From Branchiostoma floridae (taxonomy: Eukaryota > Chordata > Leptocardii > Amphioxiformes > Branchiostomatidae), in the NCBI RefSeq assembly GCF_000003815.2, contig NC_049982.1, positions 9,056,717 to 9,120,716 of the forward strand: a stretch of DNA of 64,000 nucleotides, read 5' to 3'. Positions 4,442-59,975 of the stretch are shown piece after piece. The translations under genes and the position numbers were made by a program. Every line of letters begins with the position of its first letter. Within the stretch, counting starts at the first letter, position 1. Under the pieces are notes generated by a model. That model worked only from the letters and a program-made list of their open reading frames with translations, did no database searches and was not told the DNA's origin.

Positions 4442-6605
4442 TCAGAAAAACTGCAAGATAAAGACAAGAATTGAAGAAAAGGTCATTATATGTTCTTGTA
4501 CAGTGAAGGTATATGTAACCAAAATGTACATGAAAAAGAAATAAATCATCAAGACTTTACAAATGTTGCAATCATGAGCATGTTTTACCTTCCATCTGTT
4601 GCCACAGTCCATACAGAAGACAAATGGTGATGCAATGGGGCCATCTGCCGAGAAGCCTCGATACTGCAAGCAAAGCACAAAACAAGGCCATTTTAGTTAC
4701 TTTTACCATACAGTCTCCTTTCTGTTTAAACGAATTTGTGTCACAGTTGTTAACCCATTTTGATAAGTGGGAAGTCTTTACCTTTAATTCTTGTTTATAT
4801 ATTCATTTATATTAATCATTCTGAGTTTAACTTTTGCGAACAATGTAGCTGTCAGACATTCTAAATAATACTTCTGGAACAGATGTCAACATGGATTGCT
4901 TGATTACAAGTCTACCTGGTTGTAGCAGCAGTTCTCCCGCCCACAGTTCTCACACTTGAACATGTCTGTCATGGTCCCATCAGCGTGGGGAACCTGTCGT
5001 CTCTGGATGGACTCCTCTGACACCTGTCTGCGAAACTTCTTCACTTCATCTGAGGCCATCTCCTGGAAAAGATATCTATCAAATGATTTTCTAACCAAAT
5101 GCAGTAGTAGATTCTGAATTGTCACTCTCTCCGGCTTCACGACAGCCAGCAGCAGTGATCTGCACCCATCTTCTTCTGTCCTCGGCTTCCCTGGTAAAAT
5201 TGTATTTTCCTTCTTTTGATAATCCAATAAAGAAAACAATTTGGATTTTGTCAAAATATATACTTTGGCTCATACTAAGGTTATAGTTTATGTTTTCATC
5301 ATTATCACAAGGTCTCTGTAAATATTTTGGGAGCATTTTATACTAGCTTATTCAGTTGGTCAGCTTCTGTTGATACCAACAAATATTATTAGCCCTTCAG
5401 TCCTCACCTGTGCTGACATGGTGGCCATCTGCTGAGGTGTGATCTCTCCCTGTATCAGTCTCCTCCTCAGCTCAGGGTTCCGCGGGTCCTTCAGGTTAGC
5501 AGCACGGCTCCGTACCCTGTTCTTGTACTTTGTGCCTGTGTTCTTGAACTCACAGAAGATATGTGAGGCTATTGTTAAGGTCAGATGGGTTCAGCAATGT
5601 TGAGTCTCAATTAAGACATTAAGACACAGAACTTATTATTTTGTTTTCAGCCATTACCATGGTAATCATTCTGTTTTCAATGATCAATTTTTTATTGTGC
5701 ATATTATTGTGCCAGAAAAATTGTATGAGGCATGCCTAGTCAATGCTATGGTGATGTTGCTGTAATTACCTAATTACATGATATCTAATTACACATACTT
5801 ATCAGCGAGAAATTTGTAACGAATCAACAACACACAGAAATTATCTTCAACTGACTCAACCTTTTCAAAGGATATGATCCTCAATGCTTGTCACCAGATC
5901 TGTCACCAGCTGCACATTATGTGTTCCTGTCTCCAAGGCCTGTACCAGCAGTTGTCTGCATCTTTCCCTGACTCCGTCCAACCTTGGTGGCTCGTTTCCT
6001 GAACCTTCTGTACACTTGTCCTCAGTCCTTGGTTCTTCCTGAGTCAATGTTTCAGGGCAACTTGGCCTGACATTCCTACATTCTGTACACTTGTCCTCAG
6101 TCCTTGGTTCTTCCTGAGTCAATGTTTCAGGGCAACTTGGCCTGACTTTCCTACATTCTGTGGACAAGGATGCTTGCATCAAGGTTGGTTTTTCATCAAG
6201 CACCAAGGAACTTTCACATACCGGTATTCCTGGATCATGATCACACCTGTGCTGCAGATCTCCACTCTTGGATTGAGATAGGAAGTTCTGACTATCCACT
6301 GCTGTAGTAATGTTGCCTGAGCATATTTGCTGTGAGTCATGTTGAAGACTAGAAGTCGAACAACATTCTATGTTGGGTTCATCAACTTTTCCCTGCAGTG
6401 CACAGTCTGTAAATACTGTCTGTTGTTTGGACACCACAATTGTGTCACCTTTCTCACGAGTATCATTGACATTGTCCTTCTCCTCTACATCAATCTGCAC
6501 CTCCCAAGAGGCACTGCTTCTCTTTAACTTGACCTTGACATGAGGATGACTAACAGAAGATTGTTTTTTAACTAGAGGTGGGGAATCTTCAGGACTTTCA
6601 GCCAT
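4442..6605 (-). CDS. TCEA-like: TFIIS-like transcription elongation factor (central domain + zinc ribbon)
   Basis: The coding exons are 6605-5876, 5562-5408, 5062-4916, 4663-4589 and 4450-4442, giving 371 residues. TFIIS binds stalled RNA polymerase II and stimulates transcript cleavage. Residues ~208-330 form the central domain (RERCRQLL, NTGTKYKNRVRSR, NLKDPRNPELR, EMASDEVK). Residues 332-371 form the zinc ribbon, with CENC (332-335) and CMDC (361-364), ending GNRWKFF where TCEA proteins end RWKFC. Residues 1-207 are low-complexity and lack a recognisable N-terminal LW domain. They include a 25-residue tandem repeat. An in-frame TGA two codons before the ATG supports the start. The catalytic-loop SADE of TFIIS reads SADG here (351-352). 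Intron 1 has AT-AC ends; the others are GT-AG. It could be a divergent TCEA paralogue or a TCEANC-type gene. Confidence 0.88.
5563..5875 (-). other. U12-type AT-AC intron (intron 1 of the TFIIS-like gene)
   Basis: On the minus strand the 5' splice site reads /ATATCCTTTG, identical to the U12 AT-AC consensus. The 3' end reads CCTTAACAATAGCCTCAC/, with a U12-like branch site (CCTTAAC) whose branch A at about 5575 lies 12 nt before the terminal C. Joining GATC to ATATCTTC restores the TFIIS frame (...IEDHIFCEFKNTG...). No GT donor in the exon end gives a sensible join, because the frame otherwise runs into TGA at 5865-5867. Confidence 0.85.
6006..6155 (-). repeat. Two-copy 75-bp tandem repeat inside TFIIS-like exon 1
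   Basis: Units 6006-6080 and 6081-6155 are almost identical and in frame. They duplicate a 25-residue segment (core PSCPETLTQEEPRTEDKC) in the disordered N-terminal part of the protein. Confidence 0.95.
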
Positions 6606-7546
6606 AACTCAGTTGCAGATATTTGCATATACCGTTCCATGACAAGATCTACACATAACGAAGTGACCAAAAATCATTCACTCTGGTTTGTAGAATACCT
6701 TGGAATTATTTTTGACGATATTGATGCTGATTTTCTGATCAGATATATCAGTAGGCCCAATTGTTATAAGGGCCAATTATATTATTATTGGTGCCTCGAC
6801 CACGTTAAACAGCCTCATTACTCATACTGGGTACCTACTGGCTGGCAAAATACACCAGATGATTATATTATTAGGTCACAAAAATGTATGTTTTTTGTAC
6901 AAAAGACATCATTCCATCTTTGCTTTATGCTTTCCATCACTTCTTAGGCATAGTTGTAAGAATCGTCTCCGACAGCTGCCAAAGAAAAATGACTTTCACC
7001 AAGCTCCTTGCTTTCACAAACAGCAGAAGTAACGGTGTAAACAACCGTGTATTTTAAGTGTTGTTATTTTGGAGTGGGCTGGGTCCGGCAACACAGTCGG
7101 AAAACTGAAATTCAAGTCAAATCCAAGTAGTAATGTTACGAACCTACACTCTTCATGGCATGTTTTTGTAGTATTCATCAACACACATGCTTACATCACC
7201 TGTGTAGAGGCCACTATCAAAGTAAACACTTTCCAACCCCAGCCTTCTCACATTTCTGTGGGTCCGTCCACAGTATTATCCCGTTCGCGCCAGGGTCACG
7301 GAGGTTAACAGTCGAGAACATTAACAACAAGTAAAATGGGGGTATTTGTTAAGAAATAGGTACTATCTAAATTACGTAACACCTTACAATACACATAATA
7401 AACATACGAAGTGTATAAAATATTAGTTATATGCTAATATCAACTACAGAAATGTCTATAATAGTGTACTTTATGGTTATTTTCCGACGGGCAGATTTCA
7501 GAAAACCCCTACAAAGTTGGAATAGTCCGCCTTCTGCAGAACAATC
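6606..7546. other. Upstream region of the TFIIS-like gene, no gene seen
   Basis: AT-rich sequence holding the presumptive 5' end of the minus-strand TFIIS-like gene. No convincing exon, TATA box or repeat family was recognised. Confidence 0.35.
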
Positions 7547-7582
7547 ATGGCGGCGGGAAGGTGCAGGACGGAGGTCTCGCAG
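7547..7582 (+). CDS. Candidate 12-codon first exon starting ATGGCGGCG
   Basis: ATG GCG GCG GGA is in a YY1-like promoter-proximal context (ATCATGGCGGC) and is followed after 12 codons by CAG|GTTAGT, a usable donor. It faces the BTB gene. However, the BTB ATG at 9004 has an in-frame stop just upstream (8992-8994), so this could be a uORF in the BTB 5' leader or part of an unrelated transcript. Only sequence signals support it. Confidence 0.25.
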
Positions 7583-7640
7583 GTTAGTTCACCTGAAACA
7601 ACCAGAGGGGCGAGTAAGAACAGAAAGAAACAACACCCCG

Positions 7641-7719
7641 ACTCCCGGGATTCGAACCCGCGCCGAACCCGGGCAGCCGGATCACAAATCGAACGTGCAA
7701 ACCGTTCGGCCATAAAGGC
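7641..7719 (-). repeat. tRNA-like (Leu/Ser-type) module, copy 1
   Basis: On the minus strand an A box TGGCCGAACGG (7702-7712) is followed by a T-arm/B box GGGTTCGAATCCC (7647-7659). The extra spacing fits a type II (Leu/Ser) tRNA with a long variable arm. The acceptor stem does not pair, so this is a tRNA-derived element rather than a working tRNA gene. Confidence 0.75.
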
Positions 7720-7921
7720 TTAAGCCGTTAGGCGTCTTCGGTTTAGCAGTCCTTGAACACCACTGTTACACTACTCCCCCTTTTCTTTTCAAGATTCGTC
7801 CTCGAATTTCCGAGTTCGACATCCCTGTGTGGCACATACTAGCCTGTTACTCACAGGGTCGGCATGGGAACCAGTGAAACAACCAGAGGGGCGAGTAAGA
7901 ACAGAAAGAAACAACACCCCG

Positions 7922-8000
7922 ACTCCCGGGATTCGAACCCGCGCCGAACCCGGGCAGCCGGATCACAAATCGAACGTGCAAACCGTTCGGCCATAAAGGC
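7922..8000 (-). repeat. tRNA-like module, copy 2
   Basis: It lies exactly 281 bp from copy 1 and has the same A and B boxes. Confidence 0.75.
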
Positions 8001-8202
8001 TTAAGCCGTTAGGCGTCTTCGGTTTAGCAGTCCTGAACACCACTGTTACACTACTCCCCCTTTTCTTTTTCAAGATTCGTCCTCGAATCTCCGAGATCGA
8101 CATCCCTGTGTGGCACATACTAGCCTGTTACTCACAGGGCCGGCGTGGGAACCATTGTAGAAATACGAGGGGCGAGTAAGAACAGAAAGAAACAACACCC
8201 CG

Positions 8203-8279
8203 ACTCCCGGGATTCGAACCCGCGCCGAACCCGGGCAGCCGGATCACAAATCGAACGTGCAAACCGTTCGGCCAAAAGG
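8203..8279 (-). repeat. tRNA-like module, copy 3
   Basis: It is 281 bp beyond copy 2 and keeps the A and B boxes, but has lost one base in the 5' flank of the module (GGCCAAAAGGC against GGCCATAAAGGC). The unit is truncated soon after. Confidence 0.7.
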
Positions 8280-8672
8280 CTTAAGCCGTTAGGCGTCTTC
8301 GGTTTAGCAGTCCTTGAACACCACTGTTACACACCTTTTCCGTGTCATTTAGGAGACTTTGTGCAAGAATTAACCACAGAAAAGATTAGGTTGGACATAA
8401 AGACTAATATGCACGACGTCTTTGTGGTTGTTGTTAACTGAATCTCGCGGAAACAGCATTTTTGTGGGAGGGGAACTTTCGACCGACACGTCAAACTTTG
8501 ACCCTGTTGACAGCTAGGCCAAGTTCATTTATATGCATCGATAGAGTCAGTACATGAAAGTTATTAGACCTACAGATGATAGTTTAGAAGCTTGAGCATC
8601 CTGTTATAAACCTTATAAACAGTGATATCGTTCCGAATGTTGGCTGCAAGTCTTTAAAACTAAAAGGGCAGT

Positions 8673-8681: not shown

Positions 8682-9003
8682 AACTGAATACTTTGCAACT
8701 GATATGCTTCGTCATGATATGAGTCAACAAAGGTCATATTTTGTTTTTCTTTTCTCAGGACCATTTTGTGGCTGCGTCATTGCTGTGTCCGTGTTGACAT
8801 TTATGATTTTGTCATTTTCGGAACAAACTTTGTAGCTTGGTTGCCATTGCCTACAACACATATCAGGTTTGTTTGTGACCTATTTTATTTGTTTTTCTTT
8901 GGACAGGTGATAGTGTCAGCTGAAAAGACTCCTGACTGATGCCATCCAAAAATGAGCCATTGACACAGATACATCTTTAGACAGACTTTGGTAAAGGAGA
9001 AAG

Positions 9004-10158
9004 ATGACCGCACTAAGGAGAAGACGGGAACTCCTCCCCCTGCTGGGGAGGCCAGTAACAGCCCCGGAAACCTTCACAGAAACAACTTTTCTTCTTGAGG
9101 GAAACTTTCTCTTATCTATTCCCTCCCTTCTGCATGCCCCAAAAGTGCAGGAAGTGACAGTGCCACCATCTAGTCTTCCAGAAATCATTCCTATAGAAGC
9201 CTTAGATCAGAACGCGGCAGGGGAAGGGGAAAACTCGCCCAGGAAAACCTTTCCACAGCCGTCTGAAACCTTCCGCCGTGTCCAGGCATTGTTGCCCACG
9301 ATCTATCCTACAACAGTGAACATTTCACAGGGTGTACAAAACAACAACACAGACTGTAACATTGAAAACGACAGAAATGATGATTGTGAACAACCATCAA
9401 GCTCAACGGACCAAGAAACCTCCGACTTTGAAGACGAAGCCCAGAAACAAGACAGCCACACACCACAACTTCCCTGGCTGTACAGTGAGAGTGAGGATAC
9501 TTTTGAACCAGATGTGGGGAGAAAAGTAGTTTCTGCCAGTAGCTTGGTTCGTAGAAGTACAGACTCTGACATCCAATCCACCCTGCCCCTTCTCTTGAGG
9601 AGACGCAAAAGCTACGACCAGTTACGACCAAAGTCCTGCCTACACAAAAGATGGCGGATGCTCGGCGATGGACAGAAGAGAACTCATGGAAAGATTAAAG
9701 TCAACTCACTGCTAACCAAACTACCGGATGTTGAAATCCATGTCGATGAGTACATCTTTCTGTCGTGTAGAGACGTCCTGTCAGTGCACAGTGACTTTTT
9801 CAAGGCCATGTTTTCGTCAGGAATGCGTGAGAGCCTTGAAGGCAGAGTTACCCTCCATGGCCCCCTGGCTTCCATGTTCAAGGTGTTGTACGATTACATG
9901 CATGGTGAGGGACTGCAGTTGACAGGAGACAATGCCCAGAAAGTGTTTGAAACAGCTGATTTTCTGCAGATGACCGAAGCAGTGGAGTTGTGCATAGACT
10001 ACATTCAGGACAACCTGGACACTAAGAACTGTCTGGATGCCCTGCAGCTGGGGGAGATCTACTCTGCCACTAGGATCAGGAGTGTGGTCTACTCTTTCAT
10101 AGATGACGAGTTCGTAGAAAAGTTCATGAAGATAACACCATTTGAGTTTGATGGGTGA
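9004..10158 (+). CDS. BTB/POZ (BTB-BACK) protein, single coding exon
   Basis: An uninterrupted 384-residue frame. Residues 1-230 are low-complexity and probably disordered, with an acidic/Asn/Ser stretch (about 115-160) and no known domain. Residues ~231-340 form a BTB fold: PDVEIHVDEYIFLSCRDVLS, then HSDFFKAMFSSGMRES, then LYDYMHGEGL and VFETADFLQM. Residues ~343-378 look like the start of a BACK domain (NCLDALQLGEIYSATRI). The protein stops there, without Kelch repeats. BTB proteins of this type usually dimerise and act as cullin-3 substrate adaptors; without Kelch repeats the substrate-binding part is unclear. The ATG is fixed by an in-frame TAA at 8992-8994. The gene is divergent from the TFIIS-like gene and convergent with the ZIP gene. 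I do not recognise a specific orthologue. Confidence 0.88.
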   Translation: MTALRRRRELLPLLGRPVTAPETFTETTFLLEGNFLLSIPSLLHAPKVQEVTVPPSSLPEIIPIEALDQNAAGEGENSPRKTFPQPSETFRRVQALLPTIYPTTVNISQGVQNNNTDCNIENDRNDDCEQPSSSTDQETSDFEDEAQKQDSHTPQLPWLYSESEDTFEPDVGRKVVSASSLVRRSTDSDIQSTLPLLLRRRKSYDQLRPKSCLHKRWRMLGDGQKRTHGKIKVNSLLTKLPDVEIHVDEYIFLSCRDVLSVHSDFFKAMFSSGMRESLEGRVTLHGPLASMFKVLYDYMHGEGLQLTGDNAQKVFETADFLQMTEAVELCIDYIQDNLDTKNCLDALQLGEIYSATRIRSVVYSFIDDEFVEKFMKITPFEFDG

Positions 10159-12948: not shown

Positions 12949-15900
12949 TTAAATCTTTATTTGGTCCTCAAACACTGCAATAAGTAACATGATCCCAATG
13001 CCCACCAGAAGTCCAAAGGACTGCACCAAGACGGGAGAAGCCGGCTCGTGGGTCTCTGTCTTCTTCTTCTTCTTGGTGTTGTTGTCGTGGCTGTGGCCGT
13101 GACCATGACCATGCTCACCATGGTCATGATCAGCACTGTCAGGCTCAGCAATGACCTGGGGCTGATTGGGATGTACCATGTCTGGCAACTGGAGGGGGGA
13201 AGATGACATAAGATCTAAGCCATTTTAAAAGGATGGGGAAGATGATGATCATTTTCATTAGAACAAGCCAATTCCCACAGTCTAATCAATTCAAAACCAC
13301 GTATCCAGTCATAACAAAAGTAATTGAAGAAAAAAAGGGCTAGATGCATGAGTTACAGAATACAGTCAAACCTTTACAAGTGACCACCTACATAAGGACC
13401 ACCTAGCCTGGTTGAGTGTGAACACCTTTTGGTGATCTCTTAGAGAAGTTTTTGCACAAGCATAAAGAATCCTATCTATAGAGATGACTTGTTCACATGG
13501 ACCAGACTGTTATTACATATACAGTCCCTGAGTGGTCTACTTGGGCAGTTTAAACTGTACATTCCATTAGAAGCACTGTGACTTACCATGTCCACCAGAC
13601 CAACGTACAGGAACATCCCGGCGGTGACTGCGAACACATACTGGATAACGTTACTGGACAGGTTGCCGATGCCCAGGCCGATGAGCAGGCCGATGTAGCA
13701 GATACAGGCAGACATCAGGTTGTACAGGATGGCCTGCTTCACCGACATGCCTGCCCTGATCAGCAGGGCAAAGTCACCTGGGAGGAAAAGTAATGGTTAG
13801 GGGATAATCATCGTCAAGGTCATTGTCATTGCATGGTGGCTAAGTAGTCAACCACACGAGGATAATGACAACACGATAGCAATAATACAGGCTTCTATCT
13901 AAAATTGTTGTTATAAGAGAGTGTATGCTCTAAATTTAATTGGCTGTATTCCAGAATTAGAACGATTTTTTTTTACATCTGTAAGGACTAGTAGCAGGTA
14001 CTTTAAAATTGATAACTGTCCAACAGCCCCTTTCAATAAACAAAAATTCTCCTTTTGATGATATATAATCCTTGATCATGTATCTTGATCATTTCCCCCC
14101 CAACACAAGCACACAAATACAGCGCTATCACAATCAGAATACTGATAAAGCCCCTCACCAAGTTCATGTGGCAGCTCATGGCAGAAGACTGCAATAGATG
14201 TGCTGACGCCTCCTGGGATCCCGCTGGCAAAAGCAGCGCCTGTGCAGACAAATCATCTCATAAGATTTTTCAATATTGGTACAATCTTACTGCAAACTTT
14301 GCAAGAACGAAGCATCATAAAACACTTTCTCATTATTTTTTTCATTGCTAAATCAAAGTGAATGACAGCTTGTATGCACTTATTATCATATAGCCAGGCG
14401 CCGCGGACCAATCAGAAGGCCCCGTTCCACGTTGGTTATGACGCCGTAACACGTAGATTCAGGCCAGGCAGGTGGGTATCGCTCCCCTGATTGGTCGGAA
14501 TCCATGTAAAACGTAATCCAAACATTATTACTGTTCACATTCCTTCAGATTTGTTGAATATGTACAACTATAACTCACGATTGAATAGCAACACACTTGT
14601 CCCAGCAGAAGGTAATTTGTCATCATGTCAAGCCTTGGAAGTCATGAATAAAGGATGTATGTATTATAAAGTAATTTGTTGCTTAAATGGCTCAGTTTGT
14701 GTAGGCTATATTATAATAACGTTAATGCCCCCNNNNNNNNNNNNNNNNNNNNNNNNNNNNNNNNNNNNNNNNNNNNNNNNNNNNNNNNNNNNNNNNNNNN
14801 NNNNNNNNNNNNNNNNNNNNNNNNNNNNNNNNGGCCGGGGCATTAACCCTTTATTAACATATGAATACATACCCCAAAATGGAAGGTTATTCTATCCTCT
14901 CTTTACTTGAACGATCCATTAAAACGATGTGTAATTGAAAGGGTAACAGACGACTACTCACCAATAGCCATGCCATCACTGAAGTTGTGCAGTCCATCCC
15001 CCATGATCACCATCCATGCCATGGTGGCTATCCCAGCATCCTTCAGCTTTTCGTTGTCATGGTGATGATGATGATGATGGTGGTGACAGTGGTCGTCCTC
15101 TGTGGGAGAGTCTGTTGCTGCCTTCAACTCGTAGGACTCCCCAGGATGGGCAAGTTCCCTCTGTTTACGGAGTTTCTTTGCTTTCTGTAATAAAAACAAG
15201 TGAAGAAACTGTAATTTCATGTTTGCTGTGTAAGGGAGATGATGAAAATTATACCAGCATTAAGGAAAGCTAATATATAGATCTGAAAGGGCAAGAGGGT
15301 GAAAATTGTCCATCTACATCCCTTCCTGAGATTTCCCAATAGAATATCCTTGGGATGAAAGAAGCAAGACCCAAGCATAGTCCTATTATGCAGAGATTTC
15401 CCATAGTGGTTACACAAAGCCTACTGGGGAATACTCTGCTAAACATGTTTCAGACCAATACATTACATAGAATCCCTTGGTTAGAAATATTAATGAGATT
15501 GCCATACTAGGCAGAAGCCTATCAGCTTTACTTGAAAGAAACAAAAAATCAGGCAACTCTCTGATTGACTGACAACTGGTTTTTGGCTAGCCCCTAACAA
15601 CATGTCTGTGAAGGAGGTTTTGCAGAGTACATGCCGGTGGGTCTTGTATAGCTGCTGTGGAAAATCTCTTTGTAGAAAACCCTGAATGGACTCACCCTTT
15701 TGGCCCTCCTCTTGGTCATGACTCCCATGAGTTTCTCCATGATGAACAGGAAGTAGATGCCAAACAGCACAGTCAGACCCTTCAGCACTGGGTCAAGATG
15801 GCTGCCCTCGTCATGACCTTTACCATGATCATCATGACCTTCGTGTCCCTCATGACCGTCCTCCTCAGCATGAGCATGGAGTCCAAGTGACTGAAAATGG

Positions 15901-18207
15901 ATACATCCCATTTGATTAACATCTGTTCTGCTGGTGATACTGGTTCTGTAAGATTAGAGCTAGGATCCCTTGAGGTGCTCTGCAAAACTTACCACAGGAG
16001 CAAGCAAAAAGTAGCCCCAGCCAGAATACTTAGTAACAACGGAGGATTTGGTACCCAGACCAGATCCCCTGTATACACTGTACTACAACACAAGGGTTGT
16101 TCCAGGTACTTACATGAGGCAGAAGATGAAGAACTGCATCTCCCGTCAGTGTTCCCACTGCCAGGGCGACCAGGAAACACAGCAGGAACTGGTACACTTT
16201 CTGCTCCATGAAGGGGAGCAGCACGATTCCCAGAACAGCCAAGATGCTGATGACTGTCACAGCCAGAATTCCGTACCCCCACACTGTAACGATAGATGAA
16301 TATAGAAAATGTATCCAAAAAATATTTCCTCACCATCAAAATGTTTGAAAGAATTGGCAGCATATATAGGGCTGTATACGCATACAACTTTAACTTATTG
16401 TATATGTATGTACATGGAGAAAATTGGGCACATGATTCAGCTATTCCATACATTACGGCAAAAATCTTTACTAGCTTGAAGAATATACAGTCACAAAGAT
16501 GATATCCCTCATGTACATGTAGGCTGATTCTGACTGTACATGTCAGTCTTCACAAAGTTTTACCAGTCTTTACAAAGAGACACTCCTGTTACCTGCTGCT
16601 GGTAGGCCTTGTTTCCCCTTGTGCTCATCATGATCACCATGATCATGAACATCCCCTTCATGTACAATACAAGCCTGTTCATCTATCTGTGTGATGAGCA
16701 GTGGGCAGATGTTCACAAAGTCTGGCATTGTCATGACAGACATGCCTGGTGGGATGTTGTATTCTACCAGGATGTCCCTTGCAGAGAGGCACTGTAGCAA
16801 TGTGAAAAGGTGAAAAAAACTGTTACGTCATATGTGTTGTGGTGCCAAATACCCATAAAAATGACAGTTCATCATTTCTAGAATACACCAATAATAATAA
16901 GATTCATTCTACCATTCAGCAAAACAACAGCACAGTGTGAAAGAGGATTGGCTTACATGGGCGCCTGGAGCATGTCCATGATGATCATGGCCTTCATGGT
17001 CGTGATCATCGTGTCCATGGTCGTGATCTTCGTGTCCATGGTCGTGATCTTCGTGTCCATGGTCGTGATCTTCGTGTCCATGGTCGTGATCTTCGTGTCC
17101 ATGGTCGTTATCACCGTGTCCATGGTCGTGATCATCATGTTCATGGTCGTTATCACCGTGTCCATGGTCGTGATCATCATGTTCATGGTCATGATCATCG
17201 TGTCCATGGTCGTTATCACCGTGTCCATGGTCGTGATCATCATGTTCATGGTCATGATCTTCATGTCCATGGCCATGATCATCGTGTCCATGGTCATGAT
17301 CTTCGTGTCCATGGTCGTGATCATGGTCCTCATGGGCGTGGTCTTCGTGTCCATGGTCTTCATGGTCCCCATGTCCATGCTCCTCCTCATCTTCATGGTC
17401 ATCATGATCATGACCATCATGGTGTTTCTCATCTTCCTTGCCTGTGCTACTGGCTGCATCCCTGCGCACCCTTCTGAGCGGCTCTGTTGTAACCTCAAGC
17501 TCCATGAGGTCTAAACTACTGGTTGCTGGCACTGCCGTGGACTTACGCCCTCTCCGTCTCTGCCGCCTCTTCCCTTTTCTTCTCTGTCTCCTACTGCTGC
17601 CGTGCCTTCCCGGCCTGGGAGTTGGGGCTACCTGTACAGCAGCAGGTGCTGGCGCTACAGTTGTGGTTGGACTCTGTGGAACCTTTATTGTCTCTGTTGG
17701 CTCCTCATGGTGATCATGTGCTTCCCCTGGCATTGCACTTTCATGGGAGTCCTGATGTGAATGATCAGAATCCTGTTGACTGGTAGTGGTACCACTTTCC
17801 TCATTCTGATGATCAGGATGATGGCCATTATCAGACAAACCATTGTTGTGTGGATAATGCACATGATCAGTGTCACCAACTGTGTCCACAACCAATGCAG
17901 TGCTATTCCTGTCCCCTTCATCATAACTAACGACCATTGCCTCGTGCTGCGCAATCCTCACCTCACCAAGTCCCAGTCTCTCCAGGAGCTCCTGGAAACC
18001 TTCAAAGGTCATCTTTCCATCCTTGCCATACTTCTTAAATATCTTCTGTAAGAATTCGTTTTCTTTGAGGGACTCTTGATATGGGTTCTTGGCTGTAACA
18101 GAGACTGGGTCGAAGCCTCCATGATGAGCTGCCGCCTCCGCCTGATGAAACACTCCAAACGTCAGCAAGCAGAGGAAACACACACAGTGCAGGGGAGCCC
18201 TGTTCAT
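12949..18207 (-). CDS. SLC39A6/10-like: LIV-1 subfamily ZIP zinc importer (ZIP6/ZIP10-like)
   Basis: The coding exons are 18220-16957 (ATG at 18207), 16791-16593, 16283-16114, 15890-15696, 15184-14962, 14239-14159, 13777-13587 and 13188-12949, and all phases join cleanly (849 residues). ZIP proteins bring zinc into the cytosol. There is a signal peptide (~1-25). A ZIP6/10-like segment ([10 protein letters not shown]...[12 protein letters not shown]) is followed by a furin-like RRVRRD near residue 245. A His/Asp repeat spans ~258-415, followed by the CPLL motif (446-449). The transmembrane bundle has HNFSDG at 671-676 and HELPHELGD at 700-708, the LIV-1 HEXPHEXGD motif. TM3-TM4 has a run of nine His. 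There is an extra His-rich loop (791-804) between TM7 and TM8. The ATG at 18207 has a good context (GTAGCCATGA); the in-frame Met at 18243 is upstream of the acceptor and is intronic. Confidence 0.93.
14721..14847. repeat. Inverted repeat bracketing the first assembly gap
   Basis: GTTAATGCCCC at 14721-14731 and GGGGCATTAAC at 14837-14847 flank 100 N (14733-14832) inside a ZIP intron. This suggests that a terminal-inverted-repeat element sits across the gap. Confidence 0.5.
14733..14832. other. Assembly gap (100 N)
   Basis: A run of N in the intron between ZIP exons 14962-15184 and 14159-14239. Confidence 1.
16975..17425 (-). repeat. His/Asp-coding minisatellite in the ZIP ectodomain
   Basis: 21-bp and related units encode reiterated [14 protein letters not shown] heptads over about 125-150 residues. 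The DNA repeat CCATGGTCGTGATCTTCGTGT is visible several times in a row on the plus strand around 16990-17110. Confidence 0.93.
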
Positions 18208-21200
18208 GGCTACAATCACGCTGAAAACAAAAGAGAAGTTCATTGAAATCAGGCGACAATGTATCTAAAGACTAGAAGTCTGGTTTAGATCCCCAAAGAT
18301 GGAAATCGTACATCACTTGCAAGAACACTGCACATATGACAATGATATGACAATGAATATGGACTTCTTACCGACTCATTTCTTCACTGTATCTTAGACT
18401 TGGTGGTAAAAAAATATCACTTGTCTAACACACTTGTATAGAATCTTAAGACAAAGTCAAGAGTGTCACATCTCTCTGACCAACTCATTATTCTATCCTC
18501 AATGAGGTTGCATGGTGAGCACCTGTATATACTGCAGCTTGGCATCACAGTCAACATTACCTTCATCCCAAGGACTTAAGTTCTCCTAGGGATGTGGATG
18601 ACAGCAAACAGTAAAGAGACAGCAGCTAAGTAGACAGAGATATCATAGAACATGTGTACATGCATGTGTTAACTTGTTAGAGGTAACCAGCACTAATGGT
18701 ACACTACATTTCCGGTATTTGACCTGTAACAAAACAGTGTCACTTGTAAGCACAGGTACATGTACACCATGCAATGGAACAAAGCCCACGTGGCATCACT
18801 GAATGCAATTTGTGGTAACTATCTATATAGTGACAGCCCACTGCCCATCAATCTTTTGAAAATATCTGACCTGAAACTGGAAAGGTGGCAGTGTGACTAG
18901 ATTAGGGACACTGGGAGGTAAAGATGGGCTACAAGGTATTGTCCAAAACAGATATACCAATAAATGGTTTAAACCCTTTCAGACTCAGATCAGATTAGAC
19001 AGAAAAAAACCTGTTGCCTTTTTGTTGTAACTTCCACCATGGTGGTTATGTCTTTGGGTGTGCCCTTGTGAACAGGATTACTTGTAGATGGATCTTTATA
19101 TGATATTTGGTTATATGCTTGTAAGAGTCAAATTAAGAAATGATCACATTATGGCCCTGGTGGCTTTCAATGTTACTGCAGCATTCGAACTTCTGGTTTT
19201 GATGCTTTGCACATGCTTTATAAAGTTAATGATACTCTGGGCTTGTGAAGAAGAGACATATACCCCCCGGTATATGTTTGGGCCCAGCTTTCATGAAACT
19301 GCAGGGTTCAGGTTTGTTTGAGATGCTGAAGAAGGAAATTAGTTGCATAATCAATGAAAAGCCTGTAGAATACACCAGTATGTTGTATGTTGTGTATATT
19401 GTAATGACTTTTATGTAGGTTTAATGATGTAAATATGTTTCTATGTTTGTTCGTATTTTTGTGGGTTAGCAGCTACCAGCATGAGCTGCCTAGTCTGGCA
19501 TATTATAAGTTTCATATATCATTATCTATCAATGTATCATTATCAATATATAAATACAAATACAACTGCATAAGTACATTGTGTACAAAATAGGCCACTC
19601 TTATATTGAATTTCATACAGGTTTTATGTGTCATGGTCTCCTAACGCAGTAATTATCCGCGACCCCCCTCCCCAAAAGTAGTTCGTTAGAAAATAGTGCC
19701 CCGCAGTACTTGCAAAGGTCGTAGTTATTCTTGCGCGTACAACAGCGAGGTGGAATCTGTGGTGAATGGTAGAGGAATACATCGGTATTGATACTGTATA
19801 AGTTGGATTACGTTGCTTCTTCGGCCGGCGTGGATTTGCGCCTTGATACTGTTACCGGCACTTCCTGTTCGTCTCCTGCAGTTCCATGACCTCCACTGGG
19901 GGTCATATCAAAGTGTCTTTTATAGAAAAACGAGCCAGCAAATCTATGCTCATTTTCAGATATTTTGTAGGTTGTACCCTCAACTTCAACATACTAAATT
20001 CTTGTAAATTGTATCTGCACCTTACTATAGGTTTTGAGTCGTCGAACCACCTCACTTTGGGGTCCTTAACCATGTAAATCCCCATAGGCGAAAAACTGTG
20101 TTCTGAGACCTTCATACTCTGTTAAGACCATGCCCTTAGATAGCCCGGATGCCAGGCTTGTTTAGCTTTGGTCTGTAGTACTCTGTACCGGGTACAGTGA
20201 TAACTACGCAGCCAACAACTAACATGGCTGACATCCAGGGTAGCCTTACAAGAGGGTGTAAGTGGTCCTTACACTCACAAGTCACCTAGTGTCACAGGGA
20301 TTGGCCCAATAAAGCCGATAATAGCAAGTGTTTGTTGACTCTATTTGTAGTTCCACAGACCTTATTTATATATATAACATGTAGACCTTACGAAAGCCGC
20401 TGTGCTTTTGTCGTGTCAATAAAGATTTGTGTATAACCTGGTCTCCTTTTGTAATTAACCGGGACCTTTTGCTAATCTCATATCCCTCTAACTCAAATAT
20501 TTTGGAAGTCGTTCTTTCGTTCTTTCAAACAAAGTAAAAGAACGTGTAAGGGATGTTTTTTTTTCCTAGCAGACAAGTCTGCTTTCAAATTCTTTCCTTT
20601 AAATTGTACTGTTGACAAAAGGTGTTCGCATGACGTGGTGAAATTTGCTTTGGGAGACCACAGCACACTCCTTTTCTCAGAACCCATTTCATCTGGTTTT
20701 CTCACTCTCAGCTGCCGTTGTTCCTACCTGTATGGCCCTTTCCATCCCCTCCCCTTTCGATCATAAATAGAACGCCTACTGCAGGACGAGAGTTCGCCAG
20801 TGATACCGCCATGTCTTTCTAGTGAATTTGTTTGACTACCCAGACATCCGGTAAGCAAATTGTACAGGAAAATACAGCACCATAGGCTATCATCGTCTTA
20901 CTTCTACATCCTTACACAATAAGTGTCATCATGTACAGTAATTTCCACTTCATTTGGTCCATAACACAGCGACTTATTAAAAACGCCTACACTAACTCAT
21001 GTGGGAATACCACCCTGCTCTGCAGTTTGGGACAAAGCGCGGCAACTCTACGCAAATAGCCGTCAGGGGCCGCGCCAAATTCCCGTCGTTTTTGCCTTTA
21101 AACGAAACACTGTCCTCTATTTGGGTACCAAAAGATGCCATAATGTCACTCACCACTTGTAGGATACTGTTGTTGTTACCCTGTGCGTATTTAAGGCTGT

Positions 21201-52785: not shown

Positions 52786-54301
52786 TCACAGGTAAAACAA
52801 GAAATGCAATGGCGGGTCGATATCCACATTAGACCACCTGAATGTAAAGCATAACTTTTGTCTTCCACATGCAATTTGTGGAAGCCAATAACGCTGACAA
52901 TTTGAACAAGTCCGTCCTTTGTAGATCAGGCCACAATTTACACAGTGAAAACTTTTGAGGGGCATCATACATGACTGATCTCTCTCGATATCTACTTTAT
53001 ATCCACACTCTTGAAAGTGATTGCCGCTATATCTAATGTATTTAGTTATAATGTCGTCAGGAACGTACTCAGTAGTAAGACATCCAACGCTACAGTCATG
53101 CTCGGAGCCTCTTACAACTTCTATGGGGAACCTTTGGTCGGGGATCCAGACTGCAACGGAGGACGTTGGAGTCGGATTTCCCTGAAATTTTCTATGCGCC
53201 TCATCGAGAACTTCAAGAGTGAGCGAAGTTAAGTTTGGATAGGCTTCCCGAAAATCAGTCCTTCGTTTCATAAGAACTGATTCGAGGAAGAGAGTAGCAG
53301 ATGATTTCTTCAGCGTCTCACACAGGAGATGTAGACCGTAGAACTCCGCGTCTTCATGGACGTTCTTGGCCACATCAGGAGGAGGCAGCTTGTCCTGGCG
53401 GAGGAACTCCAGGATGTGGCCGAAGTGACTGCCGTCCCGGTCTATGAAGTAGCGGCCGTCCTGAAATGGAGTTAAGCAAAAGGCCTAGAATGAAAGAACA
53501 CATGTATTCACATGATATGGCAAATTAAGGGTTGAAGTTGATTGGTACAGTGTACAATGCTATCCTGACTGCCTGAGGTATACACTCGTGCCGCTGTGCA
53601 GAGGAACAGTTGATATTTCTTCAAACCTTAACTTCTTACAGTGATGTCACCATAATATAGACATAGATATAACTTTTACCTTATCCTGGACGACACGATG
53701 ACGTCCACTAAACATGGCCGCCAACATGGAGTCTTCGTACTTCAGCAAGGTCGACAGGGTCGTGTCAAAATGGCGGCCTCCCACGTTCAACGAAATAACT
53801 TCCGGAAAGCTCTGCACAGAAGATGTACAAATTTATAAAACTTAGGATGGAGGAAAGAATTCAAAATCACGCACCAAGAACTCTCTATACAACTTTCTAT
53901 TATACCAGTGTCTCATTTGAGATTTTGCCACTGCTGTGCTTAACATTGACTAACTAGCTTGAGTTCAAGTTTCAAATTCCTTAGTGACGGTTTTAAAAGT
54001 AAAGCTTTATGACTTATCTAAGGTATGTTTTTGCAAAAACCTTGAATACATCTTAGGTCAACTTGAAAGTGACCGACACAAAGAACTCTTGCGAAAACAA
54101 ATCACGAATTCATGTAAATGCAGACTGCTATAGATAAATTGTACATTTTATCACTCCAGGTTGTTCCACAGAGCCATGACACTGATCAAGTGGAGTTTAA
54201 TGGCATTGAAAATTCTTAGGCGCCAGCGCAATTAATTCAGGAAAGGTGTAAGTCAACATATTCGTGCAGAATGCAAACACGAACTTCACACTCACTGCCA
54301 T
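52786..54301 (-). CDS. KCTD7-like BTB protein with C-terminal zinc-knuckle motif, copy A
   Basis: The exons are 54301-54296 (only Met-Ala before the donor), 53811-53680 and 53460-52786, giving 270 residues. Residues ~3-95 are a KCTD-type BTB/T1 domain (FPEVISLNVGGRHFDTTLSTL, SMLAAMFSGRH, DGRYFIDRDGSHFGHILEFLR), closest to KCTD7/KCTD14. Such proteins oligomerise and many are cullin-3 adaptors. The C-terminal half holds CVNC (219-222) and CSNC (231-234), a CxxC-X8-CxxC arrangement typical of a small zinc knuckle, then ACGRQKLCFTFRW, which corresponds to the final strand of the KCTD7 fold. Copy B next door has the same gene structure, so this is a tandem duplicate. Zinc binding is inference from the cysteine spacing. 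Confidence 0.88.
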
Positions 54302-55949: not shown

Positions 55950-57816
55950 CTAGCTAAACAACGGAATCAATGCTGGATCAATGCCCACCTGGGACCATCT
56001 GAATACAAAACATAGCTTCTGACTTCCACACGCAGTATAATTATAATTCAAGAACCGTGAACACCTCGGACACGTGTCTAGTTCAGGCGCCAGGATTATC
56101 ATACAATCCGGACAGCAATACACCTTGTTCACACAGTGCTTATTTTTCAGTTCGACGTCAACTTCATATCCACACTCCTGCAAGTGACTTTTGCTAAATT
56201 TCATGTACTCATTTATAACGTCCTGAGGAATGTGCTCAACAATAAGACATCCAGTCGTACAGTCGTGCGCGGAGCCTTTGATAACTTCTTTGGGAAAAAG
56301 AGGCCTTTCTGAAGGGATCCAAATTGTAACGGACGACGTCTGAGTCGGACTCTCCTGAAATTTTCTCCGCGCCTCGTCAATAACATCAAGAGTGAGCGAA
56401 GCTAACTTTGGGTGAGCTTCGAGAAAATCATCCTTTCGTTTCTTAAGAAATGTTTCAAGGAAGACAATTGCATATATCGTCTCCATCTTCTCACTAAGTT
56501 GACGTAGACCGTAGAACTCCGCGTCTTCCAGAACGCCCCTGGCTACGTCAGGAGGAGGCAGCTTGTCTTGGCGTAGGAACTCCAGGATGTGGCCGAAGTG
56601 ACTGCCGTCCCGGTCTATGAAGTAACGGCCGTCCTGAAATAAACGTTCAGACTCAGAGTTGAAACGGATAGGAACATTCCCAAAAGTACATATGACAAAC
56701 GAAAGCATAAACTATATCTGCAAACTGTCAAGCAAACGTCGAATGTGAGCTGAATGTATGCTACGATGATTTTATCTAAAAGAATTACGGAGACAAGGAT
56801 CAGTTCGTATCAGTTCATTCCTTGTAAGGTGACAGCATGTTCTCCATAAGTTAAGCGGTAGTAGAACAGGATCATTGTAGACCGTACCCACAGCAGTAAT
56901 ACCAGGCACTAAGCTGGCTTTAAGCTGCCATTATAATGATAAAATTTTGATGGATTTGTTTCCTGGGAAGTACATTTTGATGGATTTGAGTTCTTTTGTT
57001 GGATGACCCATTTGATACGAATCCATATTTCATAATACCATAATTTATTCATGTATGCCCGCAGGACCCTTTGAAAACCGGTGGTGATAGGGGTTCCTGG
57101 GTAAAGGAAAGGAACTGGAGTAAAGCGAGACTTCTCCTCTAGTACATAAACCATCTCTTTCATGTACCAGATATGTGTATTGAAATAATCTAATATGAGA
57201 TAGGATTTAATAAAAGCAAACCCACCTTGTCCGTGACGACACGATGACGTCCACTAAACATGGCCGCCAACATGGAGTCCTCGTACTTCAGCAAGGTCGA
57301 CAGGGTTGTGTCAAAATGGCGGCCTCCGACGTTCAAGGAAATGACTTCCGGAAAATTCTGTAGATAGAGTTATGCAAGATTTTATGATGAATAGAAATGA
57401 GTAGAAACTAACATGAATATATGCAACGGTCAGAGAAAATTGAGTAATCCGAACTAGTAGATAATCCACTCAAAAACCCATTACAGTTCGAAAACATCCT
57501 CCAGTGAATTCTTCAATTGAAATGGCTAAGAAAAGTCGACGTATACAATGTGTAAACGTATTTTATGTGAATGTACGTTCAAGACGTCCACACTATTATG
57601 TAGGTTTTCAGCGAGCCAAAATGGCAGCTATATTGTATGTAAGCTGTAAAGCCTTTATGACAACAGTGGTTGGAGCCACACACGGGCCTTGGGTTAACAG
57701 ACCAAGTCAAGTTATTACTGGACATTCGTCTTTCATATCCTTCAAAGTGTGCTTAAAGTGGCTTAAAAGATAAGAAAAATGTCATCATAGAATTGGAGAT
57801 TATCACTTACTGCCAT
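55950..57816 (-). CDS. KCTD7-like BTB protein with C-terminal zinc-knuckle motif, copy B
   Basis: The exons are 57816-57811 (Met-Ala), 57357-57226 and 56633-55950, giving 273 residues and the same layout as copy A. The BTB domain is nearly identical (NFPEVISLNVGGRHFDTTLS..., DGRYFIDRDGSHFGHILEFLR). The C-terminal half diverges but keeps CPDC (220-223) and CPRC (234-237), with a longer spacer (X10) than copy A, and then ACGSQKLCFVFRW. The conserved cysteine pairs against a diverged background suggest a real metal site. A Met upstream of exon 3 in an open intron frame (56708) is rejected as a start because the BTB half would be lost. Confidence 0.88.
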
Positions 57817-58463: not shown

Positions 58464-59975
58464 AATGAAGACCTTTATTGCACATTTTTGCCCCACTGGG
58501 CTAAGTACAGGTCACACGGTAAGAATCACATATATGTAACAATGGAAACAATCATACACATCTATATATGTAGATGTGCGTCTAATCTATTCTAAGACAT
58601 TCGACTTCCTCTCGCTTCTTGGTAATTGTATAAATGTAGCTAGCTGTATGGTTGGTTAGAGTTGGTTTGTCAAAAGCTGTCAGGAATATAAATTTCTCTT
58701 TACTATTCAAGTATCTAAAGTGGGGATATTTACTTAACACATAGTCAAATAAAATGCTCCTATCGCTATCATACAAAGGACAATCCATGTACTTCATCTT
58801 CTACTTTCCCTAAACTACAAAATTGGCATATTCTTTGATCTAGAGGAGTGTGGTTATGTCTTCCTGATTCGATTCGTAATTTGTGGCAACTGATTCTTAG
58901 TTTGGTGATGGTAGATCTGTGTCGTACATTGGCAATCTTAAGATATTCTTCTTCTTTATAAGATTGTTTTAATAGTCTGTATGTTCGTAGTTTGTTTTTC
59001 GCAGTCGCAACTCTTTTATCGTTGTGGATTTCAGATAGAAAGGTCTGGAAATAAATATCTTTTAAACGTTGATAGATTGATGAAAGAATTTGAGGTGTAC
59101 TTGAGACTGTTGACTGGGCGTTTTGCCAGACGAAAGCATAGCCACATTTCTCTAGAGTGTTGCGTACTTCAGAGGCCCAACATTTAGAACCTGATGCTTC
59201 TAAATCCATTTGGCACAAGAGAGCATCTGCTTGAAGGCTGTCAGCTGGCACGTTCTTGCTAAGTCGAATGAAATACTTGATGGTATTTAGGGAGGCCTCC
59301 AGATGAATGGGGTACCTCCCTAGTTCTGCCTGTGCTGCGAGATTACTAGCTGTTTTGGGGACATTGAGTGAATATTTACAATATTTTAGGTGTACAGATT
59401 CAATGGGACAATTTTTGGGACTTTTCAGAGATCCCCATATTTCGGACCCATAAAGTAATATAGGTTTAATACAAGAGTCGAAAATCTTATTTTTAACAGC
59501 TAGTGGGCAATCGGCTTTGTCAAGTGATTGCCTAATGCTAAACAAAGATTTTAGACCCTTGTTTCTTAGATGTTTGTTGTTGGCCTTGAAAGTGCCAGCT
59601 GCACTTACCACTATACCTAGATAACAATATGACATAACAATTTCAATTACATTGCCATTAAACAAAAAGAAACAATTCTTTGGTAATCTACCTCCCTTGG
59701 TGAAGACAATAATCTTGGTCTTTTTTAAATTCACCTTCAGGTTCCAATATTTACAATATCTTTCTAATCTAACTAAACATGATTGCAAGCCTTGTTCAGA
59801 CTCGGAAAACAATACAAGATCATCTGCATACAAAAGACACGGTACTTTCCTATTGTGTAAACTAGGAGAGTTGCAACAAATATCATCAAACTCAAAAGTT
59901 ATATCGCTAATAAATAAATTATACAAAGTTGGACTTAAATTACAGCCTTGTCGGACCCCACAGTGAGTTCAAAAA
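58464..59975 (-). mobile_element. 5'-truncated non-LTR retrotransposon (LINE) with reverse-transcriptase remnant
   Basis: The minus strand encodes the C-terminal part of a reverse transcriptase. GVRQGCNLSPTLYNLFI lies at the truncated 5' end (~59970), then the catalytic YADD motif (LLYADDLVLFS, ~59820), NLKKTKIIVF, SYCYLGIVVS and ILLYGSEIWG. A C-terminal CQFC...H...C motif follows. A frameshift near 58790 splits off the last ~70 codons (MDCPLYDSDRSILFDYVL...). The 5' half of the element, with the endonuclease and most of the RT, is missing, so it is inactive. The clade is not certain (CR1/L2/jockey-like architecture). Confidence 0.9.
58769..59926 (-). pseudogene. Truncated LINE reverse-transcriptase frame
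   Basis: The longest intact part of the RT remnant is about 385 codons. It contains YADD and the thumb/C-terminal region, is open at the 5' end into the GVRQG motif, and is closed early by a frameshift near 58790. Confidence 0.85.

Follow-up and report, generated by a model that had tools for sequence, protein, structure and literature searches.

A gene on the minus strand of a 64-kb stretch of the Branchiostoma floridae genome (64,000 nucleotides, here called the window) is interrupted, inside the central domain of a TFIIS-like protein, by a sequence that begins with AT and ends with AC. The locus raises the question of whether this sequence is a genuine U12-type intron and, if so, how the gene came to carry it. 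An earlier note, which gave no strand, had proposed a textbook U12 AT-AC intron at 5563..5875. This proposal was borne out: the splice signals stand at the right spacing, the genome holds minor-spliceosome snRNA genes, and a paralog has an intron of the same kind at the same codon and phase. By its sequence, the intron is confirmed as a genuine U12-type AT-AC intron, ordinary in kind.

Table 1. Features of the TFIIS-like gene and of its AT-AC intron (positions in the window)
Feature	Position	Strand	Basis or remark
U12-type AT-AC intron, first of the coding model	5563..5875	minus	313 nt, phase 1; signals, frame, paralog
5' splice site ATATCCTTT	5867..5875	minus	same nine bases open the paralog intron
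Branch site CCTTAAC	5574..5580	minus	11 nt separate it from the 3' splice site
3' splice site AC	5563..5564	minus	junction placement
Exon 1 (coding): linker, then the beginning of the TFIIS central domain	5876..6605	minus	start codon picked by eye; N-terminal TFIIS domain not found
Exon 2: central-domain core (IFCEFKNTGTKYKNRVRSR...)	5408..5562	minus	coding model, homology
Exon 3: central-domain end and zinc ribbon start	4916..5062	minus	GT-AG introns on either side
Exon 4: zinc ribbon, loop SADGP instead of SADEP	4589..4663	minus	alignment
Exon 5: final two codons and stop (RWK|FF*)	4442..4450	minus	coding model

Splice signals, reading frame and chance expectation

Read from 5875 to 5563, the intron runs ATATCCTTTG...TGACCTTAACAATAGCCTCAC, with CCTCAC as its last bases and CCTTAACAATAGCCTCAC as its 3'-terminal stretch. 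It matches the U12-type donor consensus, ATATCCTTT, at 9 of 9 positions. The base 5' of CCTTAAC is A, where the consensus has T, so that the word textbook was slightly generous. A passage of PMC2846911 gives RTATCCTT as a U12-type donor, and part of PMC6717393 places the optimal distance from the U12-type branch site to the 3' end at 11-13 nt. The second A of CCTTAAC lies 12 nt from the intron end; the earlier statement that the motif stands 12 nt before the end holds for this A, but the motif itself stops 11 nt short of the 3' splice site.

The coding frame meets a stop two codons inside the intron, and the join across it reads ...SIEDH|IFCEFKNTGTKYKNRVRSR. When the full protein was aligned with the PDB chain of TCEA1 (transcription elongation factor A protein 1; 157 bits, 4e-45), the join was colinear and ungapped; the claim that it restores the family sequence exactly was too strong, since residues differ. 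The identical mRNA is obtained from seven placements of the junction, only one of which has a known dinucleotide pair, AT-AC; none of the seven is GT-AG or GC-AG.

Counting both strands, ATATCCTTTG occurs once and ATATCCTTT twice in the window. For introns of 60-1000 nt, the combined pattern of donor, branch site and acceptor was observed once, while 200 order-1 Markov sequences of the window's size and composition gave an expectation of 0.63; up to 5000 nt, 4 pairs were observed against 3.1 expected, and two of these are a single donor with two acceptors. Since 0.63 occurrences are expected by chance in 64 kb, the splice-signal motifs alone prove nothing. The evidence is that the motif pair falls exactly on a coding junction, and that this junction is forced by a frame fixed by homology. 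That a given junction with seven placements would show the U12-type signals at one of them has a chance of about 8e-9, a rough, post hoc estimate that treats bases as independent. A second AT-AC-like pair, at 27806-25507 on the minus strand, was rejected after three frames had been read on each side without a convincing coding frame being seen. Two further AT-AC-like motif pairs are found on the plus strand, from 15344.

Minor-spliceosome snRNAs and the canonical paralog

The earlier note had suggested checking the genome for U11 and U12 snRNA genes. A covariance-model search of 513,431,437 bases in 431 contigs detected both, together with U6atac and U4atac, that is, 4 of 4 minor-spliceosome families searched, all above the Rfam cut-off (U12, 132.1 bits; U11, 94.1; U6atac, 133.6; U4atac, 81.1); with one match per family among the candidates scored, these counts are lower bounds. 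The 14 control genomes gave no match to any of the four. The U11 of the genome starts AAAAAGGG, and its U12 contains GAGUAAGGA.

In the established order of minor-spliceosome steps, U11 would pair, through the AAAGGG close to its 5' end, with TCCTTT of the donor, while U12 would pair with the branch site. U6atac (AAAGGA) would next take over the donor, and the minor spliceosome would excise the 313 nt, joining GAGGATC to ATATCTTC in phase 1. Duplexes predicted with the snRNA ends of the genome itself gave, as raw values without a shuffled control, -5.3 kcal/mol for U11 AAAGGG with the donor UCCUUU and -6.5 kcal/mol for U6atac AAAGGA with the donor. The duplex of U12 with the branch site was calculated at -5.7 kcal/mol; it places UAAGG on CCUUA, and the remainder departs from the bulged-A model of U12/branch-site pairing. 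The branch site of the paralog intron, TCCTTGAC, yielded -7.4 kcal/mol with U12, in a shape that matches that model.

This paralog was found in a protein search of the genome, which returned six exon matches, four in the window gene and two in a second gene (L010, on contig C2). The 162-aa core of the latter aligns with TCEA1 at 228 bits, and the N-terminal TFIIS domain (PF08711) matches its first exons with 45.8 bits; with a zinc ribbon of 67.2 bits in addition, it is, judged on these sequence matches, the canonical TFIIS (TCEA) gene of the genome. Its AT-AC intron (L010 5509-6028) is 520 nt long, runs ATATCCTTTCC...TTGTCCTTGACTGCAAGCTCCAC, is in phase 1 and has one possible placement. Comparison of RIEEC|IFQEFKN in the paralog with SIEDH|IFCEFKN in the window gene places both introns at the same codon, phase and alignment column. 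Over 157 aligned residues the two proteins share 75 identities, and 4 of 4 introns of the window gene, the AT-AC intron among them, have a partner in the paralog at the same column. In contrast, PF08711, the loop SADEP and a strong ribbon mark the paralog, as does an intron at LKTD; this intron, lacking in the window gene, is the only one without a partner among the five examined. This comparison covers the stop-free stretch downstream of L010 4395, and the coding model of the paralog is provisional at one junction upstream.

Because the AT-AC intron occupies the same position in both paralogs, it most likely arose before the TFIIS gene was duplicated in this genome, and to this extent the earlier suggestion that it is useful for dating is sustained. 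Taken together, the sequence evidence makes it very probable that the U12-type AT-AC intron of the window gene, in the TFIIS-like central domain, is functional, and that it would have been passed down by a TFIIS gene in which it was already present; the paralog has one of the same type at the same codon.

Three other explanations were weighed. One is that the major spliceosome removes the sequence as a U2-type AT-AC intron, like those of sodium-channel genes. Such introns are a real class, as a passage of PMC2831892 documents; according to the same source, however, these introns have G at +5, whereas the window intron has C, and here the first nine bases are ATATCCTTT and a U12-type branch site stands at the proper distance. 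U1 also pairs poorly with this donor: its 5' end gave +1.1 kcal/mol with the donor region, against -14.0 kcal/mol with the U1 consensus. We therefore regard this explanation as very improbable. We give just as little weight to a GT-AG or GC-AG intron with other ends, or a micro-exon, the AT-AC motifs being there by chance. The earlier note had named a GT-AG donor with an extra micro-exon as counter-evidence. For a single intron between 5990 and 5430, the pairs that keep the frame open number 10 GT-AG, 6 GC-AG and 12 AT-AC (the intron itself included), so that candidates do exist. Inspected one by one, however, all 10 GT-AG pairs turned out to delete more than 10 conserved residues of the central domain each (the GC-AG and AT-AC pairs were counted only), and in the paralog these signals recur at the corresponding column.

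The shared position could also reflect U12-type introns gained independently at one site in both paralogs. The two intron bodies cannot be aligned, and blastn recovered exact matches of 7-9 nt only, one of which is the donor itself; divergence explains this too. Independent gain is opposed by the shared AT-AC subtype, codon and phase, and by the remaining three introns of the window gene, which likewise match the paralog in position; such a double gain is highly unlikely. The simplest account of the two AT-AC introns would be a shared origin followed by selection to keep the splice signals.

The TFIIS-like gene and its surroundings

The spliced five-exon model comprises 371 codons with no stop inside, and 3 of its 4 introns are GT-AG, the first being AT-AC. 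The spliced protein matches the TFIIS central domain (TFIIS_M, PF07500) at 114.8 bits (E 3.5e-33, cut-off 29.2), in agreement with the earlier assignment of a TFIIS-like gene. The zinc ribbon (PF01096) scores 22.6 bits (E 9.3e-5), barely above the cut-off of 21. PF08711 was not found in the 371-aa model, and a tblastn search of the 64-kb window with the 64-aa N-terminal part of the paralog gave a best E of 8.1, although a diverged domain could escape either search; as a control, the same query recovered its own three exons in the paralog. Within exon 1, a 75-nt tandem duplication (6003-6152, 97% identical) doubles a 25-residue part of the linker.

The acidic loop of the zinc ribbon reads SADGP instead of the SADEP seen in the paralog and in the TCEA1 chains: Gly replaces the second of its two acidic residues, and the Asp-Glu pair is absent. 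The same loop alignment shows SADHP in the yeast PDB chain 3gtm, which we take to be an engineered inactive form. In yeast, changing both D290 and E291 of the loop to alanine abolishes cleavage and is dominant-negative, as described in a passage of PMC6863433; the window protein differs from that double mutant in being altered at just one of the two acidic residues. The loop region (4663-4589, minus strand) also contains one additional residue besides the Gly.

On these sequence features, the window gene is a divergent TFIIS paralog, and it may be specialised or decaying. The latter is suggested because no N-terminal domain was found, the loop is changed, and the ribbon scores 22.6 bits against 67.2 in the canonical gene; the reading frame, however, is open across all 371 codons. 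It is conceivable, but improbable, that the gene encodes a natural cleavage-poor TFIIS paralog that would hold back, by competition, the rescue of backtracked Pol II, and whose output would be kept in check by slow removal of the retained AT-AC intron by the minor spliceosome.

A genome search with PF07500 gave five matches among 7 candidates scored, which we read as four genes: the window gene, the canonical paralog, two exons on contig C17 and one on C15, the last below the cut-off (27.5 against 29.2 bits). In the two more distant genes, the exons on C17 (SIETELHKLYNDTGTRYKSKYRS) and C15 (ETIERETFHMCRRLLDRGYKRTM) are uninterrupted at the intron position, and the AT-AC intron is thus present in 2 of the 4 TFIIS_M genes, that is, in both of the TFIIS type. 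TFIIS-like relatives were not detected by tblastn in the bacterial and archaeal genomes (41 pattern matches) or in the viral contigs (153).

Elsewhere in the 64-kb window, neither Rfam families at their cut-offs nor, with ARAGORN, tRNAs were detected. Three copies of a unit of ~281 nt lie at ~7495-8350 and contain GGGATTCGAACCC, which resembles a tRNA B box; the units are possibly tRNA-derived repeats. A BTB-domain ORF (8995-10155, plus strand) is divergently oriented to the TFIIS-like gene. An exon of a ZIP zinc transporter (PF02535) is located at 13479-13796 (minus strand), adjoined by ORFs with histidine-rich stretches (~12.9-16 kb, minus strand), and the 451-aa ORF at 16912-18264 (minus strand) has no Pfam match. 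Two similar BTB_2 ORFs (52789-53484 and 55953-56711, minus strand) are likely tandem duplicates, and a reverse-transcriptase ORF at 58772-59968 (minus strand; RVT_1, 68 bits) forms part of a retroelement.

Relation to known AT-AC introns

Compared with U12-type AT-AC introns in general, the window intron has the same donor ATATCCTTT, a CCTTRAC motif near the 3' end and an AC acceptor, and it is likewise the lone minor intron among the GT-AG introns of its gene; apart from the A before CCTTAAC, there is no difference of substance. A Xenopus TFIIS gene, TFIIS.oA, reportedly figured in the AT-AC intron lists of the 1990s; if so, the gene family and intron subtype are the same. The rarity of AT-AC introns, asserted in the earlier note, applies per genome, but they make up ~24% of the minor introns of mouse and ~22% of those of human, according to part of PMC6717393.

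Among the papers listed by our literature search, none on an AT-AC or U12-type intron in a TFIIS/TCEA gene was found. TCEA was not found in main-text passages of PMC2831892, PMC2846911, PMC6865273, PMC9501576, PMC10639083 and PMC6717393, nor Branchiostoma in those of PMC7367187, PMC2831892, PMC2846911, PMC6865273 and PMC10639083. As minor-intron lists usually sit in supplements, this silence gives no hint that the intron is missing from them. The window intron is a further example of a well-known class, backed, beyond its motifs, by conservation in a paralog and by the snRNA genes.

Its value lies in the good control that two paralogs of a single genome provide: AT-AC subtype, position and phase appear to have been kept in both while the rest of the intron drifted. 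This retention fits the published observation, in a passage of PMC2831892, that a switch to the major type is less frequent among AT-AC minor introns than among GT-AG ones. The intron would serve as a marker for dating the history of TFIIS genes in animals, and the divergent paralog that carries it may be more interesting than the intron itself.
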